Source of the DNA: Pseudomonas entomophila
Lineage (GTDB): Bacteria > Pseudomonadota > Gammaproteobacteria > Pseudomonadales > Pseudomonadaceae
Direction: 5' to 3'
Assembly (NCBI RefSeq): GCF_023277925.1
Contig: NZ_CP063832.1
Coordinates: 310,001 to 374,000, forward strand
DNA: 64,000 nucleotides
A program made the position numbers and the translations under genes. This document shows, piece by piece, positions 5,279-52,871 of this stretch. The notes beneath the pieces are model-generated. The model saw nothing but the letters and a program-made list of their open reading frames with translations, made no database searches and was not told the DNA's origin. Numbering within the stretch: position 1 is the first letter of the stretch; the number at the start of each line of letters is the position of its first letter.

Positions 5279-6052
5279 TTACTCCTTGCAACCTGGGTAG
5301 ATAGTGCAAAGCCTTCCATCGGGCATGATGAATTCGCTGAAGTCTGTGTGGTTTCCCCAGCAGTAAGCATGAAGATCTGCCATTCCTTCGCCCAGGCATC
5401 GCTTCCAACCGTTAGGGAACTCCACCCAGGTATCTTTGAAGTAGGGGCGCTCCGTGTCAGCTAGTCGTAAGTTCATTCTTATTGTTTTGCCGGGTAGTTG
5501 ATCAAGCGTGTAGGCAGCAAAAGGTTTGCCGCGGCGTTTTTCTCCGCGCTCGTTGTCCTTTTTACAATCGAGGATCTTGCGAATATTTCGGACTTCGCTG
5601 GCTGTACGGAACAACCATTGGCAAACCCCGTAAAAGGTATCCTCGGTGTTGGATTGCAGCGTGCGCCGGTATTTGTCTTCCAGTGTTATATATGTACCAA
5701 TGTTGGCATGGTCACTGCTTTGCTGGTGAAATTTATCGCCATATTTGGCAATGATCGTGATTTTTATTATGTCCAGTATCATCTGGCAGCCTTTGATGAC
5801 TTTGCGGATTTCGACAATAGCTACCGGGTTGTACGGTACGTCTCGCTTTCGATTGAACGACGGCATGCTCCGGCGCCAATCGGTCACGGCGCATTCTTTT
5901 CCCGGCTCGGGCACATACACCGTCGAAGCGGTATAGGAAAAGTTGGGGGGGAGTTCGCCAATCAATGTAAAGGTGTTGGGCGTTTTGTCAGTGCATCCGG
6001 CCATTAGCGTGATGCCTACCCACATGAAGCTTTTGATTGCAGTGCTGTTCAT
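5279..6052 (-). CDS. Lipoprotein, putative immunity protein for the lipase effector
   Basis: A 257-residue protein whose first 20 residues look like a lipoprotein signal (MNSTAIKSFMWVGITLMAGC, predicted lipidated Cys20). The mature part is rich in Lys, Asn, Tyr and several Cys and I do not recognise its family. It ends 3 nt before the lipase gene, its last codons carry that gene's Shine-Dalgarno, and it begins 14 nt after the DUF4123 gene. Type VI lipases act in the periplasm and are often paired with periplasmic or lipid-anchored immunity proteins, so this is the natural candidate. The gene is clearly AT-richer than its surroundings, suggesting acquisition. The same frame stays open upstream to 6895, but that stretch is a shadow of the DUF4123 gene. 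Confidence 0.6.
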   Translation of the reverse strand: MNSTAIKSFMWVGITLMAGCTDKTPNTFTLIGELPPNFSYTASTVYVPEPGKECAVTDWRRSMPSFNRKRDVPYNPVAIVEIRKVIKGCQMILDIIKITIIAKYGDKFHQQSSDHANIGTYITLEDKYRRTLQSNTEDTFYGVCQWLFRTASEVRNIRKILDCKKDNERGEKRRGKPFAAYTLDQLPGKTIRMNLRLADTERPYFKDTWVEFPNGWKRCLGEGMADLHAYCWGNHTDFSEFIMPDGRLCTIYPGCKE

Positions 6053-6066
6053 CTTTGCCTCTGTAC

Positions 6067-6888
6067 TCAAATCAACGTATGCCGACGCAAACGATCCACG
6101 TGGGCCTGGGGCGATTCGCCGAAGAGCGGCGCGCATTCCCGAGGCAGTTCGAAGCCGGGCGAACGAAGGCTGAGCACCAGCAGGAACTCGATCTGCGCCG
6201 GCGCGTGCCACCCCCAGTCCTGCGCGCGCTGCAACTGCCGTTGCAGCCAGGCACGGGGCGGTTGGCGCTCGGCCAGGGCCAGGTACGCCGGCAAGTGGTG
6301 GCTGTAGAGGTAGCGATGGGCATTGGCCCGGGCCACCGGGCCCGTGACATTCGGCGCGGGCAGTTGCAGCCAGGCGGGCTCGTTTGGCAGCGGATGGGCG
6401 CCCGGCGCGGGGTTGTCCAGCGTCGCCCAGGCCTGCCCTTGCCAGTAACACACACTGATGGCCTGCCCGAGGTAGGCCGGCAACGTCGCCCGGGCCGCGG
6501 CCAGGCCACGGGCCAGCACGCGGTTGTCGTGGAAGCGGTACAGCGCCCGCTGTGGCGGCTCGCCGACCAGCAAGCGTGCGCGCCAGTGCTCGACCCAGGC
6601 TGGCAGGTCGCCCGGCGCCAGGCTGGCCAGCCAGCCCCAGTGATCGTCCGGCAGCTCCAGCAGCGGCTGGATCAGCCGGACCTCGGCCTCGCCGACCAGG
6701 AAGCAGGCTGGCCCATGGAGCGCGAGGTAGGCAGCGTCGGTCTGCTGGTACAGCACCTGGCGACGGTCGGGGGGCAAGCTGCCCATCAGCGTCTGGCGCG
6801 CCTCGACATGGGCATCCAGCACCAGGGCGATATCGCGGCCCTGGGCGCGCTGGCGGGTTATCCACTGCCAGGGGGAGATCGCGCTCAT
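6067..6888 (-). CDS. DUF4123 type VI effector chaperone/adaptor
   Basis: A 273-residue protein starting MSAISPWQWITRQ. It has the DUF4123 pattern: an early strand-rich half with LVLDAHVEA and YLALHGPACFLV, and a late helical half with the YLYSHHLPAYLALAE segment. DUF4123 proteins load effectors onto VgrG. ATG 6888 overlaps the vgrG stop codon (ATGA), showing translational coupling. A longer reading from 6936 lies inside vgrG and is unlikely. It presumably serves the lipase encoded two genes downstream. Confidence 0.8.
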   Translation of the reverse strand: MSAISPWQWITRQRAQGRDIALVLDAHVEARQTLMGSLPPDRRQVLYQQTDAAYLALHGPACFLVGEAEVRLIQPLLELPDDHWGWLASLAPGDLPAWVEHWRARLLVGEPPQRALYRFHDNRVLARGLAAARATLPAYLGQAISVCYWQGQAWATLDNPAPGAHPLPNEPAWLQLPAPNVTGPVARANAHRYLYSHHLPAYLALAERQPPRAWLQRQLQRAQDWGWHAPAQIEFLLVLSLRSPGFELPRECAPLFGESPQAHVDRLRRHTLI

Positions 6889-8939
6889 CGGGCACCTCCC
6901 GCCGGCAGGCACAGGCCGTCGCGGCAGCTTTCGCACAGCGGGCAGTAATCGCTGGCGGTGGCCTGGCTGGTGTTAAACAGTGTCCGTTGCCAGGCGGATA
7001 CGGGGGCCGACAGCGCCACCGGCGCAGCTTGCCCGGCCTGCTGCCCCGGCAGTGCCGGCGCGGTCGGCAGGCCGGTGACAGGCGCCCCGCCGATCTGCAC
7101 CGGGCTGCTGGCGAAGATGCCGTTGGCGTTGATAAGCAGGTGCTGGCCCGCGACTTTCAAGCTGATGCTGTTGCCGCCCTCCACCAGCACCTCGCCATCG
7201 GCGCTCACCTGCACCCGCTGGCCCGCGTGCTGCAGCAGCACCGTGCCGACGCGGGTCTGGCTGGCCTGCTCGACGGTCAGGTGGTCATCGGTGCGCAGCA
7301 GTACCTTGCGTGCCCCGCTGACCGTGCGGTGGTCCTCGTCTTCCAGCGTGACCTGGCTGGTGCCCTTGATCAGCGCATGGCGCTGGCGGCCGATGTACAG
7401 GTGGCTGTCCTGCTCGATGCGCTCCTCCAGGTCGCGCTGGGCGCGCAGGTAGACCCGTTCCTGGCCGGCGCGGTCGTCCATGGACAGCTCGTTGTAGCCG
7501 CCGCCACCGCCCAGGCTACGGCTGCGCAGCACGGTGCGGCTGTTGTAGTCGGGCAGGGGATAGGGCGGCAGGTGCAGGCTGTCGGGCAGGCAGCCGCTGA
7601 TCACCGGCTGGTCGGGGTCGTCGTCGAGGAAGCTGACCAGCACGGCCATGCCGACCCGTGGCACGGTCAGCGCGCCGTGGCGGTCGCCCGCCCAGCCCGA
7701 GGCGACCCGCAACCAGCAACTGCTGTGCTCGTCGCCACGGCCTTCGCGGTCCCAGTGGAACTGCACCTTGACCCGGCCGAAGGCGTCGCAGTACACCTCC
7801 TCGCCCTGGGGGCCGGTCACCCGGGCTTCCTGGCTGGCCGGCACACGGGGCTTGGCGTGGCTCAGGGGCGGGCGGTAGATCGTGTCCCACGGCATGGCGG
7901 TGAAGGTATTGGTGTAGTGCGCGGTGGCGTCGGCGGTGGCGTTCTCTTCCAGTACCTGCGGTTGCTGCCCTTTGTGCGCCACGCTGGTCAGCAGCCACCG
8001 CTGGTTGCACGCCGCCTGCGGGTGGCCGGTCAGGTTCACCAGGTGCCCGCTGACCAGGCCTGGCTCGTCGCTGGCCCCGTCGGCCGTGCACTGCCTGGCG
8101 CGGCAGCGTTCCAGGGTGCGCTGTGCCAGGGCGCGGCCACGGCCCTGGTCGACCGTTTGCAGCAGGCCGCCGGGGTAGGTGTAGTGTTCCCGGGCGGGCG
8201 TGTCGCCGGCCCGGCTGGTGTAGGCCAGGGCGGTGGCGCTCTTGCGAAAGTCGTGGTCGCGCAGCTCGACCCGCTCCACGCTGGATTCGAACGCCAGGGA
8301 GAAGGCGCTGGCCACGGCGGTATTGGCGTTGAGGCCGTTTTCCGGGACGAAGGCCAGTGGCTGCGGCAGGTGGGGAAAGTGCATCTGGTGATCGCTGAAC
8401 ACCACCCGATGGCCGTCGGGGGCGTGCTCGAAGCGATAATGGATGCCCTCTTCCTGGCACAGCCGTTCGATGAAGGCCAGGTCGGTTTCGCCGTACTGCA
8501 CGCAATAGTCGCGAGGCGGGAAGGGCGCCTCGAGGCGGAACTGGCAGGCATCGGCGAGGATGCCGTGTTCCTTGAGCACCTGGCCGACGATCTGCGCCAC
8601 CGTGCGCTGCTGGAATATCCGGTGGTTGTGGCGTAGTTCCAGGCGCGCCATGCGGGGCACCAGCCTGAGGTGGTAATGGGTTAGGCGCTGGCCGACAGTG
8701 CCCAGGCGTGCACGCGCCAGCATACCGTGCACACCTCGACCCTGGTCGTCGAAGGCGAGGAATGCCGGCTGGTCGAGCAGGGTCTGCAGTGCCAGGCTGG
8801 TGCTTTCGCTGACCAGCTCGATATCGAACCCGTACAGGGTGCTGATGCCTTCTGCGCCGCTGAAGGCGAGCACGTGCGCGCCGCGGGGCAGGGCGTCGGC
8901 GAACAGGCGCAGACGCTCCGGAGGGGAGGGGGTGAACAT
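6885..8939 (-). CDS. vgrG: Type VI secretion tip protein VgrG
   Basis: A 684-residue VgrG of the TssI family. It has an N-terminal gp27-like domain (IDIELVSES, YCVQYGETDLAFIERLCQEEGIHYRF), a gp5-like OB-fold (VYCDAFGRVKVQFHWDREG, CWLRVASGWAG, PRVGMAVLVSFLDDDPDQP) and the repetitive beta-helix stem ending near residue 600. The end is unusual: the last 20 residues carry Cys666, Cys669, Cys672 and Cys677 (CPLCESC then C). No other secretion-apparatus gene lies nearby, so this is an orphan vgrG island for its own effector. The start ATG 8939 has AAGGAC just upstream. Confidence 0.95.
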   Translation of the reverse strand: MFTPSPPERLRLFADALPRGAHVLAFSGAEGISTLYGFDIELVSESTSLALQTLLDQPAFLAFDDQGRGVHGMLARARLGTVGQRLTHYHLRLVPRMARLELRHNHRIFQQRTVAQIVGQVLKEHGILADACQFRLEAPFPPRDYCVQYGETDLAFIERLCQEEGIHYRFEHAPDGHRVVFSDHQMHFPHLPQPLAFVPENGLNANTAVASAFSLAFESSVERVELRDHDFRKSATALAYTSRAGDTPAREHYTYPGGLLQTVDQGRGRALAQRTLERCRARQCTADGASDEPGLVSGHLVNLTGHPQAACNQRWLLTSVAHKGQQPQVLEENATADATAHYTNTFTAMPWDTIYRPPLSHAKPRVPASQEARVTGPQGEEVYCDAFGRVKVQFHWDREGRGDEHSSCWLRVASGWAGDRHGALTVPRVGMAVLVSFLDDDPDQPVISGCLPDSLHLPPYPLPDYNSRTVLRSRSLGGGGGYNELSMDDRAGQERVYLRAQRDLEERIEQDSHLYIGRQRHALIKGTSQVTLEDEDHRTVSGARKVLLRTDDHLTVEQASQTRVGTVLLQHAGQRVQVSADGEVLVEGGNSISLKVAGQHLLINANGIFASSPVQIGGAPVTGLPTAPALPGQQAGQAAPVALSAPVSAWQRTLFNTSQATASDYCPLCESCRDGLCLPAGGAR

Positions 8940-19209: not shown

Positions 19210-19285
19210 GTCCCCTTCGTCTAGTGGCCTAGGACACCGCCCTTTCACGGCGGTAACAGGGGTTCGAGTCCCCTAGGGGACGCCA
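19210..19285 (+). tRNA. tRNA-Glu (TTC), copy 1
   Basis: 76 nt with encoded CCA. The acceptor stem is GTCCCCT/AGGGGAC, the anticodon loop CTTTCAC gives anticodon TTC, and the T-arm is GGGGTTCGAGTCCCC. Confidence 0.97.
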
Positions 19286-19287
19286 AT

Positions 19288-19363
<76 letters not shown>

Positions 19364-19455
19364 GTTTCTCCGGCACTGCTTCGGCAGGGCAGGAAAAGAA
19401 AATCCAGGCTGAATCGCGAGGTTCATGATCTGGTGCGCTGAAAAGCGTTGGGTTT

Positions 19456-19531
19456 GTCCCCTTCGTCTAGTGGCCTAGGACACCGCCCTTTCACGGCGGT
19501 AACAGGGGTTCGAGTCCCCTAGGGGACGCCA
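19456..19531 (+). tRNA. tRNA-Glu (TTC), copy 2
   Basis: Identical in sequence to the tRNA-Glu at 19210-19285, with anticodon TTC and CCA encoded. A 92-nt spacer separates it from the preceding tRNA-Gly. Confidence 0.97.
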
Positions 19532-19534
19532 TTT

Positions 19535-19610
<76 letters not shown>

Positions 19611-19692
19611 GTTTAAACGGCGTCGTTCTTGACGGTGCAGGTGGTGAAGGTCTCAATGGCGCTTCACGCCGAATGCGGTAAAGCTTCACCCT

Positions 19693-19768
<76 letters not shown>

Positions 19769-38539: not shown

Positions 38540-39333
38540 GTTGTACCGTCGGTTTCCGGGCTGCCGGAAACGGCGTTCGGCACACACGACTTTTCATGAT
38601 CGGTGCCAAGGTGCGCAAAGGGTGGCGGGCCACCCCGTGTCTGGCGACGTTCGGCACCAGCCGGTTGCCCAGCCTGCCGTGGTCGCGACGACGCGTCCTG
38701 TTTTGCGGTGCCAGAAGGCCTGTCGAGTTTTTCGAATGTTATCCGAATCAATCGAACGGGCCTGGTGCACTCAGTCAGGAGGAGGAATCAACCGGTCGTC
38801 CGTGGACGCCGCAAGGGCGTCTGTTCAGGACCTTGTCCGTCCATCGCCCGATCAGTGGGGCGGTGGGCGGACGCGGTGCCACACGGTCCGAGGGCTGTGC
38901 ATCTCCACCCTGCACGTATCCCTGAAAATTCGGTGCTGCCGCGCGCTGAATCCGCAACGGGTTGCATTTTTCGCCAGCCCGGATGCCGGGCTGGCGCCAT
39001 AACATATCCAAGGCAGGTATTTCCGAAGCATTCGCCCAAATGCGCGGAAACGACGGTGGCGGGCAGAGGTACGGCGAAAAGAATCGGGTAAGCAGGTGAA
39101 ACACCGCACTTGTCGTTTTTTTTCGGTCTTCTCTACACAGCGCTGGTGGCGATTCCAGGCAATTCGTTAAACTGGCGAACGCTCCGTAGGACGGCCTCGC
39201 GTCCTCGGGGATTGCGATGGTCAGGGCCGGCGTAGAGCCTGGTGCCGCTGGCCTGCCGCTTTTGGCGGCGTTCGCGACTATAGCAGTAATGATTAAGTGC
39301 TTCAATTCCATAAAAAATTGTTATGATCCCGCC
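38540..39333 (-). other. 794-bp gap: long rne leader and rluC promoter
   Basis: No convincing gene on either strand. Between rne (minus) and rluC (plus), only the last 40 bases are needed for rluC, so most of the gap is probably the rne untranslated leader. rne leaders are long and structured in E. coli, where they mediate autoregulation by RNase E cleavage. I see no strong rne promoter: TTGCCT near 39152-39157 with TGTGTAGA-like bases 17 nt on is only a weak candidate. Confidence 0.5.
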
Positions 39334-46344: not shown

Positions 46345-46526
46345 TATCCGCAACTCAATGTGACGGATTGCTTCAAAAAAGAGTCATACTCGAAGCCTAA
46401 AATCCGTTATAAAGCTGCAACCAGATTCCGGGCGACGGGTCGGGTGACCTGGCAGAAGGCGCGTCAAGCTTGAAAAGCAGGCGTCTTCCTATAAACTTAG
46501 TCACCGGCCAGCTGCCTGACATATGT

Positions 46527-46543
46527 CCATTAGGAGTGAAAAC
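46527..46543 (+). promoter_or_regulatory. acpP translation-initiation site, predicted RgsA binding site
   Basis: CCATTAGGAGTGAAAAC covers the acpP Shine-Dalgarno (AGGAG, 46532-46536). It matches CCATTAGGAGTAAAAC at 52701-52716, the strand opposite the RgsA small RNA, except for one extra G. RgsA could therefore pair over 16 bp with a single bulge and block translation. RgsA repression of acpP has been reported in P. aeruginosa. Confidence 0.75.
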
Positions 46544-46548
46544 TAGGT

Positions 46549-46785
46549 ATGAGCACCATCGAAGAACGCGTCAAGAAAATCGTCGCCGAGCAACTGGGCG
46601 TCAAGGAAGAGGAAGTCAAGAACGAATCTTCCTTCGTCGATGACCTGGGTGCCGACTCGCTTGACACCGTTGAGCTGGTGATGGCTCTGGAAGAGGAATT
46701 CGAGACCGAAATCCCTGACGAAGAAGCCGAGAAGATCACTACCGTTCAAGCTGCCATCGACTACGTCAACGCTCACCAGGGCTAA
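46549..46785 (+). CDS. acpP: Acyl carrier protein
   Basis: A 78-residue acidic ACP with the phosphopantetheine site Ser37 in [13 protein letters not shown]. It is the central carrier of fatty acid synthesis. A 204-bp gap upstream probably has its own promoter (a TATAAA lies at 46490-46495, but no -35 at proper spacing), and its ribosome site is the predicted RgsA target. A terminator follows. Confidence 0.98.
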
Positions 46786-51827: not shown

Positions 51828-52610
51828 ATGCTCGTAGATTCCCATTGCCACCTCGACCGTCTTGACCTGAGCGCCCACCAGGGCTCCCTCGATGCCGCCC
51901 TGCAGGCGGCGCGCGCGCGTGGCGTGGGGCATTTCCTGTGCATCGGTGTGAGCGCCGAGAACGCCGGTGCGGTGAAAGCGCTCAGCGAGCGCTACGCCGA
52001 CGTGGATTGTTCGGTGGGCGTGCATCCGCTCGACCTGGCACCGGGCGAGACGCCAGCCTTGGAGTGGCTGTTGCGCGAACTTGCCCACCCGCATGTGGTG
52101 GCCATTGGCGAGACAGGGCTGGATTATCACTACGAGCCGGAGGCTGCGGAACTTCAGCAAGCCTCGTTCCGTCTGCACCTGGAGGCCTCGCGCCAGACCG
52201 GCAAGCCAGTGATCGTGCACACCCGTGCGGCGCGCGCCGACACCCTGGCGCTGCTGCGCGAGGCGAGCCTGCCCCAGGCCGGGGTACTGCATTGTTTCAC
52301 CGAGGATTGGGACATGGCCAAGGCGGCGCTGGACCTGGGCTACTACATCTCGCTGTCGGGTATCGTCACCTTCCGTAATGCCGATGCGCTGCGTGATGTG
52401 GCCAGGCAGGTACCGGTCGATCGCCTGCTGGTGGAGACCGACTCGCCGTACCTGGCGCCGATTCCGCACCGCGGTAAGCCGAACCTGCCGCAGTACGTGC
52501 GGGAAGTGGCCGAGTATGTGGCGTCGTTACGGGGCGTGAGCTACGAGCAATTGGCCGAGCAGACCACAGGCAATTTCAAGCGCCTGTTCCCGCTGGCACG
52601 GGTACTCTAA
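51828..52610 (+). CDS. TatD-family metal-dependent hydrolase (YcfH type)
   Basis: 260 residues with the metal ligands DSHCHLD, GETGLDYH, VIVHTRAA, HCFTED and ETDSPYLAP, all intact. The family acts as a DNA exonuclease or deacylase. ATG 51828 is the conserved start (MLVDSHCHLD). Confidence 0.95.
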   Translation: MLVDSHCHLDRLDLSAHQGSLDAALQAARARGVGHFLCIGVSAENAGAVKALSERYADVDCSVGVHPLDLAPGETPALEWLLRELAHPHVVAIGETGLDYHYEPEAAELQQASFRLHLEASRQTGKPVIVHTRAARADTLALLREASLPQAGVLHCFTEDWDMAKAALDLGYYISLSGIVTFRNADALRDVARQVPVDRLLVETDSPYLAPIPHRGKPNLPQYVREVAEYVASLRGVSYEQLAEQTTGNFKRLFPLARVL

Positions 52611-52660: not shown

Positions 52661-52696
52661 AAAAAAAACCCGGGTTCTGGGGGGGGAATCCGGGTT
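52661..52696 (-). terminator. RgsA terminator
   Basis: On the minus strand AACCCGG (52696-52690) pairs with CCGGGTT (52673-52667) around a C-rich loop holding eight consecutive C, then a T run to 52661. Confidence 0.85.
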
Positions 52697-52779
52697 AAGA
52701 CCATTAGGAGTAAAACAAAGGCACACGGTCCCTGGGCACCTTTATCGGCGCGCCACTTGGGGGGGATGCGCCGCGCCAA
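52661..52779 (-). ncRNA. rgsA: RgsA small regulatory RNA
   Basis: A minus-strand transcript of about 119 nt is predicted: -10 box CAATACT at 52787-52793 (sigma-S-like, preceded by C), start near 52779, and a terminator ending in U8 at 52661. The position, downstream of tatD and beside the next minus-strand gene, and the length match RgsA (PA2958.1) of P. aeruginosa, an RpoS-dependent Hfq-binding RNA. The segment GUUUUACUCCUAAUGG (52716-52701) is an exposed anti-Shine-Dalgarno stretch complementary to the acpP leader. The identification is from memory of locus and features, not an alignment. Confidence 0.85.
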
Positions 52780-52786
52780 CACTTCA

Positions 52787-52793
52787 AGTATTG
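52787..52793 (-). promoter_or_regulatory. RgsA -10 box (sigma-S-like)
   Basis: CAATACT on the minus strand, close to the sigma-S preference CTATACT. No good -35 is seen, which is common in sigma-S promoters. It places the start point at about 52779. Confidence 0.6.
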
Positions 52794-52871
52794 GTCAGGA
52801 TTGGCGCGCTGCCAGCGTATGCTGATCGTTTTTTAAACAGATTTGGAATACGTCTTGATTCCATAGCGCAT

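Follow-up and report, generated by a model that had tools for sequence, protein, structure and literature searches.

The core of the small RNA RgsA can pair strongly with the acpP ribosome-binding site in a Pseudomonas genome, yet acpP alone does not explain the conservation of this core

Small RNAs with anti-Shine-Dalgarno-like seeds exist generally; in these, a CUCC core placed between a hairpin and a terminator is mostly single-stranded and covers a ribosome site. RgsA resembles such RNAs in having a mostly single-stranded CUCC core between hairpin and terminator that covers a ribosome site, whereas it differs from them in its core, a conserved 15-nt stretch containing GGTCTT, the last bases of which are left unused by acpP. 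In Pseudomonas aeruginosa, RgsA is described in a review as repressing fis and acpP, with positions 71 to 77 of the RNA required (PMC9308961). Passages in other articles describe Hfq-dependent inhibition of fis and acpP translation (PMC8395346, citing Lu et al. 2016), repression of AcpP1 through base pairing (PMC5686131, citing Lu et al. 2016), and regulation of both fis and acpP, together with an Hfq peak at the 3' end of RgsA (PMC6890931). The original report is Lu et al. 2016 (Mol Microbiol 102:244), as cited by all four of these articles, and it also appears under comparative target prediction in PMC7154689. Control of acpP by RgsA is already known and published for P. aeruginosa, and the statement of a first-pass annotation of the present DNA that RgsA represses acpP and fis in that species is confirmed by the reviews citing Lu et al. 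2016. RgsA is also mentioned in Azotobacter vinelandii (PMC6755748), and no description of RgsA outside Pseudomonas was found in the titles and beginnings of abstracts of the open-licence literature, which was covered in part.

The window analyzed here is a stretch of 64,000 nucleotides that holds both rgsA and acpP, with the following features.

52662 to 52778, minus strand: rgsA, predicted mature RNA of about 117 to 120 nt (Rfam match, offset from PMC3709562, and fold)
52697 to 52711, minus strand: conserved RgsA core ACTCCTAATGGTCTT, mature positions about 68 to 82 (sequence conservation)
52701 to 52716, minus strand: RgsA stretch pairing with acpP, best register 52701 to 52715 (duplex energy, -21.1 kcal/mol)
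51828 to 52610, plus strand: tatD-family nuclease gene (PF01026, 273.8 bits; TIGR00010 above cut-off)
46549 to 46785, plus strand: acpP, acyl carrier protein, 78 aa (NF002149, 157.2 bits; cut-off, 106)
46527 to 46541, plus strand: acpP leader site paired by RgsA, CCATTAGGAGTGAAA, spanning the Shine-Dalgarno (duplex computation)
46470 to 46497, plus strand: promoter-like site of acpP, TTGAAA - 16 - TAAACT (consensus match alone)

An Rfam scan matched RF00628 (RgsA) on the minus strand at 52670 to 52865 with 198.8 bits, against a curated cut-off of 88.4, which bears out the identity proposed for this RNA in the first-pass annotation. The mature RNA is predicted to run from about 52778 to 52662, because, according to PMC3709562, the transcription start in P. 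syringae lies 87 nt downstream of the first Rfam coordinate. In the predicted fold, 5' hairpins are followed by the mostly single-stranded core and then by the terminator, and the conserved core and the rho-independent terminator, both characteristic of the family, are present. Besides, rgsA is transcribed toward the tatD-family gene, its tail-to-tail downstream neighbor, as membership in the RgsA family leads one to expect, and a tatD homologue is named as the neighbor of rgsA in sequenced pseudomonads (PMC2375449). A CAATACTT-like element lies upstream of rgsA in the sequences compared and is the sole local hint of RpoS-dependent expression; such expression and Hfq binding are reported in P. 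aeruginosa and P. syringae (PMC8395346, PMC6890931, PMC3709562, and PMC2375449).

The locus shares with RgsA/P16 (RF00628) of P. aeruginosa the RNA family, the tatD neighbor, the conserved core, and the acpP target, whereas it differs in belonging to another Pseudomonas genome and in forming 15 contiguous pairs without a bulge. In several other genera of the family, the acpP site is interrupted by a gap of one base (CCATAGG) and pairs more weakly. Provided that the predicted start of RgsA is right, the core at positions 68 to 82 includes the published region, and the stretch at 52701 to 52716 corresponds to mature positions 63 to 78. Since positions 71 to 77 are the required region and the core spans positions 68 to 82, the RgsA-acpP pairing here very probably uses the published element.

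The first-pass annotation had placed complementary sequences at 52701 to 52716 and 46527 to 46543, and both stand there, with the RgsA site covering the acpP Shine-Dalgarno (46527 to 46541) as claimed. The register proposed in it, 11 pairs followed by a bulged G and 5 more pairs, is not the best one: it scores -19.1 kcal/mol, against -21.1 kcal/mol for 15 contiguous pairs including one G-U, so the bulge is unnecessary. The 24-nt RgsA core paired with the acpP leader at -24.0 kcal/mol, a value that was reached by none of 301 sampled leaders (mean, -11.75; standard deviation, 2.68), these being script predictions for open frames of at least 100 codons from 400 kb sampled of the same genome. No 85-base tile among 9,960 equaled acpP (best tile, -23.3), and 2 of 2,000 dinucleotide-shuffled cores paired with the acpP leader as well as the real one. 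With the full-length RNA, 23 of the 301 leaders scored equal to or better than acpP, and 0 of 1,000 shuffles of the RNA matched its acpP score. Thus, the comparison with other leaders that the annotation had proposed shows an exceptional pairing for the 24-nt core, which stands out genome-wide, but not for the full-length RNA.

Furthermore, exact CCATTAGGAGTNAAA occurs at two places only in the 5.76-Mb genome, the acpP leader and rgsA itself, and at no place with one mismatch and three places with two. Up to three mismatches, 54 matches were found genome-wide against 173 for a reversed control pattern, and the weak matches are therefore no more than chance. The cost of opening is low at both sites (1.8 kcal/mol for RgsA and 4.8 kcal/mol for acpP), which are fairly open. 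The core matches the acpP ribosome site more closely than background would give, as expected of RgsA-acpP regulation, and the pairing is genuine, strong, and plausible biologically. The promoter-like site of acpP matches 9 of 12 consensus positions (mean in shuffled sequences, 0.1), and from this consensus the acpP transcript would be expected to start near 46503, upstream of the pairing site. A leader beginning downstream of 46543, which the annotation had named as evidence against the pairing, is not supported by this prediction.

We consider it likely that the locus is rgsA and that its core anneals to acpP mRNA and blocks the Shine-Dalgarno, with acpP as one of several targets. In stationary phase, RpoS would drive RgsA, as others have shown in P. 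aeruginosa and P. syringae. The RgsA core (52697 to 52716), presumably helped by Hfq as in those species, would then anneal to acpP mRNA at 46527 to 46541, and covering of the Shine-Dalgarno would lead to less acyl carrier protein synthesis. The same core could pair with codons near the fis start, and several targets would be in keeping with the presence of the core in families with poor acpP pairing. Such an acpP link, known in P. aeruginosa, would couple stationary phase to fatty-acid supply via one RNA.

Pairing of the RgsA core with the start region of fis reaches -22.7 in this genome, nearly as strong as that with acpP. The gene matches Fis model NF001659 and lies outside the 64-kb window; its pairing site lies in early codons, and the GTCTT end of the core takes part in its duplex but not in that of acpP. 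The fis pairing was -20 or stronger in 12 of 29 genomes scored with their own cores, 11 of the 18 same-genus ones among them; this set leaves out G153, which has no core. That fis pairs nearly as well as acpP would also suit an action in reverse, in which acpP mRNA, presumably abundant, titrates RgsA and thereby tunes fis and other targets, and PMC5686131 offers the speculation that RgsA is set free when acpP1 mRNA is lost, with a rise in pyocyanin. We regard this direction of control as unlikely, since it is repression of acpP that the published work describes (PMC9308961, PMC8395346, and PMC5686131), and we favor blocking of the acpP Shine-Dalgarno by RgsA.

Repression of rpoS by RgsA is reported for P. 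aeruginosa (Lu et al. 2018, cited in PMC9308961 and PMC7327168), whereas pairing of the core of the same RNA with rpoS in this genome (-13.8) is near the background of the sampled leaders, and rpoS was rejected as a core target here. The start of the gene for the peptidoglycan-associated lipoprotein Pal/OprL (TIGR02802), TCATTAGGAGTTTCACGATG, pairs with the core at -17.8 kcal/mol (G000:C1:2885661-2885675, minus strand; L030, 1501 to 1515). A catalase gene (PF00199; G000:C1:1534597-1536093, minus strand), which we take to be KatB, pairs at its start site with the core at -23.1 kcal/mol, and its ribosome site CCATTAGGAGTAGATTCATG lies at G000:C1:1536096-1536110 (minus strand; L005 and L410). Matches to the catalase were found in 55 other genomes (of 58), and the best 29 relatives were taken; apart from one in which no start was found, the 28 with a readable start pair at -16.6 or weaker with the core of the window. 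Since the pairing is absent in these 28 relatives, catalase was dropped as a conserved target and is this genome's own candidate or chance. A peroxide phenotype of rgsA mutants is mentioned in PMC9308961, which catalase pairing might fit, but covering of the catalase ribosome site predicts the opposite phenotype.

RgsA was detected in 148 of 149 same-genus genomes (own included), in 41 of 59 genomes of the family draw, and in 16 of 56 genomes of the order draw, 14 of these 16 being outside the family. The genomes were even draws, and the searches over 40 genomes used Infernal's stricter filters; a genome without RgsA is one in which none was detected. The single same-genus exception (G075) is uninformative on loss of RgsA, because it is 87% complete and also has no acpP match. 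Besides the window, 100 stretches were compared: 57 from the 147 other same-genus genomes with RgsA (mostly lower-scoring RgsA matches and a spread), 29 from the 36 in other genera of the family, and all 14 from other families of the order. One second acyl-carrier paralogue (L190) was excluded. Both acpP and the RgsA match occur in 89 of the 101 stretches (own included), in the same relative orientation in all 89, at a median distance of 6,390 bases (range, 5,713 to 8,823). The remaining 12 comprise G150, G173, G085 (contig ends early), and 9 of the 14 stretches at order level. The first-pass annotation was correct on the distance of 6 kb, but this is not special to the present genome; since all stretches holding both genes keep the layout, the closeness is inherited synteny.

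Every one of the 58 same-genus sequences, that of the window among them, carries the full core ACTCCTAATGGTCTT. The acpP leaders of the genus vary (CCATTAGG in 31 of 57; others are CCAATAGG, CCACTAGG, CCATAGG, etc.), and despite this variation no answering change was seen in the matching part of the core among the 57 same-genus genomes. When cores were swapped among these genomes, the mean was -23.37 for own and -23.35 for permuted cores, and 2,124 of 5,000 permutations were as good, although the invariant core gives this test low power. The covariation that the annotation had proposed to look for was not seen. acpP paired better than its neighbors in nearly all Pseudomonadaceae compared: in the same genus it exceeded fabF in 55 of 55, fabG in 55 of 56, and tatD in 56 of 56 cases, and in other genera with an intact core in 19 of 19, 18 of 19, and 19 of 19, respectively. 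This suggests that the RgsA-acpP link may apply widely in Pseudomonadaceae.

The leaders of genomes in which RgsA went undetected or had lost its core were similar. In G161, which has no RgsA match and no core within two mismatches, acpP is preceded by CCATTAGGAGTGAAAAC; in G160 and G176, where no RgsA match was detected, the leader has CTTAGGAGTGAAAAC; and in genus g6 (four genomes), where an RgsA-like match is without the core, it has CCTTTAGGAGTGAGAAC. Against the canonical core, the family leaders had medians of -19.3 (20 with intact cores) and -20.1 (20 with absent or altered cores), with a one-sided p of 0.90. Because a missing or changed core makes no difference to how well family leaders fit the canonical core, the acpP leader sequence appears not to be held by RgsA alone within Pseudomonadaceae, and translation is the simplest other reason for its conservation. 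In the rest of the order, the 9 intact-core leaders fit better than the 12 others (-14.9 versus -11.6; one-sided p, 0.035).

These data bear on a simpler account, in which a strong Shine-Dalgarno merely meets an anti-Shine-Dalgarno-like core, acpP ranks with many other weak targets, and its additional pairs are fortuitous or serve translation itself. It draws on the retention of TAGGAGTGAAAAC before acpP in relatives without detected RgsA (G161, G160, and G176), one of which (G161) also has no core within two mismatches, on the equal family medians whatever the core status, and on the null swap test. Nevertheless, the acpP match is unique genome-wide and top among the 301 leaders, acpP beats the neighboring leaders in almost every member of Pseudomonadaceae compared, and genetic work published on P. 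aeruginosa points to acpP as a target (PMC9308961 and PMC8395346), so that we find this account improbable. We thus retain acpP as a real target of RgsA, yet one that does not alone explain the frozen core ACTCCTAATGGTCTT, because Halieaceae-type loci carry the exact core with an acpP leader that pairs no better than fabF.

Indeed, among loci with the exact 20-mer GTTTCACTCCTAATGGTCTT that hold both genes compared, acpP paired better than fabF in 4 of 17 and better than fabG in 4 of 9; the titles listed for such loci with acpP include Haliea, Halieaceae, Halioglobus, Kineobactrum, Parahaliea, and unclassified Gammaproteobacteria. In the order genomes, own 24-nt cores paired with acpP at -21.5 (G247), -20.4 (G203), -19.6 (G248), -18.8 (G235), and -17.7 (G211), and at -9.3 to -16.3 in the remaining nine. 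acpP beat fabF in four and fabG in four of the five order genomes with neighbors. Thus, strong acpP pairing is consistent in Pseudomonadaceae, patchy elsewhere, and missing in Halieaceae-type loci. No recurrent gene emerged as a shared target in other families among 30 loci examined (from 61 places within two mismatches of the 15-mer in 8 genomes), with L359 left out, and the sole ribosome site recognized there by eye was that of acpP in G217. An origin of the complementary 15-mers as a relic of local duplication, in which copying of the acpP leader in antisense 6 kb away gave rise to RgsA, would suit two copies in one linked cluster of old layout (89 of 89 stretches) but is very improbable, given that no similarity between rgsA and the acpP leader was seen by eye beyond the core and that the acpP leaders of exact-core Halieaceae-type loci match little beyond the Shine-Dalgarno.

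Outside the genus, 19 of 29 sequences from other genera of the family carry the full core ACTCCTAATGGTCTT; one more has ACTCCTAATGG, and in 9 the core is missing or changed. Among the 14 from other families of the order, 8 carry the full core, one more has ACTCCTAATGG, 3 have ACTCCTATTGG, and 2 have other sequences. The 20-mer GTTTCACTCCTAATGGTCTT occurs in at least 117 stretches of the species collection, and the taxa among 80 titles listed include Microbulbifer, Endozoicomonas, Zooshikella, Haliea, Halioglobus, Parahaliea, Aestuariicella, and Pseudomonas. When eight of these stretches were scanned with RF00628, all eight matched with 27.6 to 80.4 bits, below the cut-off (E values of 8e-17 to 6.6e-14 in six, 3.9e-05 in one, and 0.011 in one); these sub-cut-off relatives include Endozoicomonas, Zooshikella, Microbulbifer, and Parahaliea. 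Outside Pseudomonadaceae, only 1 of 14 matches (G235) passed the cut-off. We therefore regard the loci outside the family as relatives of RgsA, not members, because they are below the cut-off, though they share the core, the terminator position, and partly the neighborhood. Of 229 genomes in a class-wide draw, two carry the exact core, G162 and the genome of the window, both Pseudomonadaceae; none of the 226 that belong to other orders does.

When the window and 54 of 57 other sequences were aligned (55 in total), all six invariant columns and 9 of 14 nearly invariant columns fall in the core; since all sequences had been picked for a core-like motif (15 of the 57 via the exact 20-mer), the alignment shows mainly the variability outside it. 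By eye, in predicted folds, a terminator hairpin follows within a few bases of the core, with stems differing in sequence. A covariance model (R1) found only 2 base pairs, the hairpins being unalignable, and was set aside. A one-mismatch core in G153 (L371) was likewise rejected; it lies in open frames, with no terminator-like stem and T run after it.

The evidence is about evenly balanced on whether RgsA predates Pseudomonas and is a small RNA of the whole order Pseudomonadales, one in which the 15-nt core stayed some 6 kb from acpP in several families while hairpins and terminator stems turned over, and in which an older or second target other than acpP holds the core in Halieaceae-type genomes. 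This reading is tempered by the fairly good acpP pairing in some other families, since acpP could be an old target lost in places. What is new here is comparative, namely the lack of detectable covariation, the acpP leader kept without RgsA, and the old core persisting without acpP pairing. The comparison separates conservation of the core from conservation of the acpP target, which are usually taken together, and it raises a testable question, namely what freezes 15 bases in marine relatives where acpP fails to pair.

Two genera of the collection depart from the common core. In genus g6 (L076, L077, L078, and L081), the RgsA-like matches keep the upstream element and the terminator without the ACTCCTAATGG core, which is replaced by GAACCGTTGGTCC or GAACCGCTGGTCC; a change of targets is possible. 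In genus g17 (L094, L096, and L097), the 3' half of the core is altered (ACTCCTAACGCTTTT or ACTCCTAAATGCTTTT) and ACTCCTA is retained. Elsewhere in the window, an rne-II RNA (RF01756, 215.7 bits) lies at 38549 to 38919 on the minus strand and is presumably the leader of the ribonuclease E gene. Five tRNA genes are clustered at 19210 to 19765 on the plus strand and look like repeated copies, three scoring 69.1 and two 60.7 bits in roughly alternating order.
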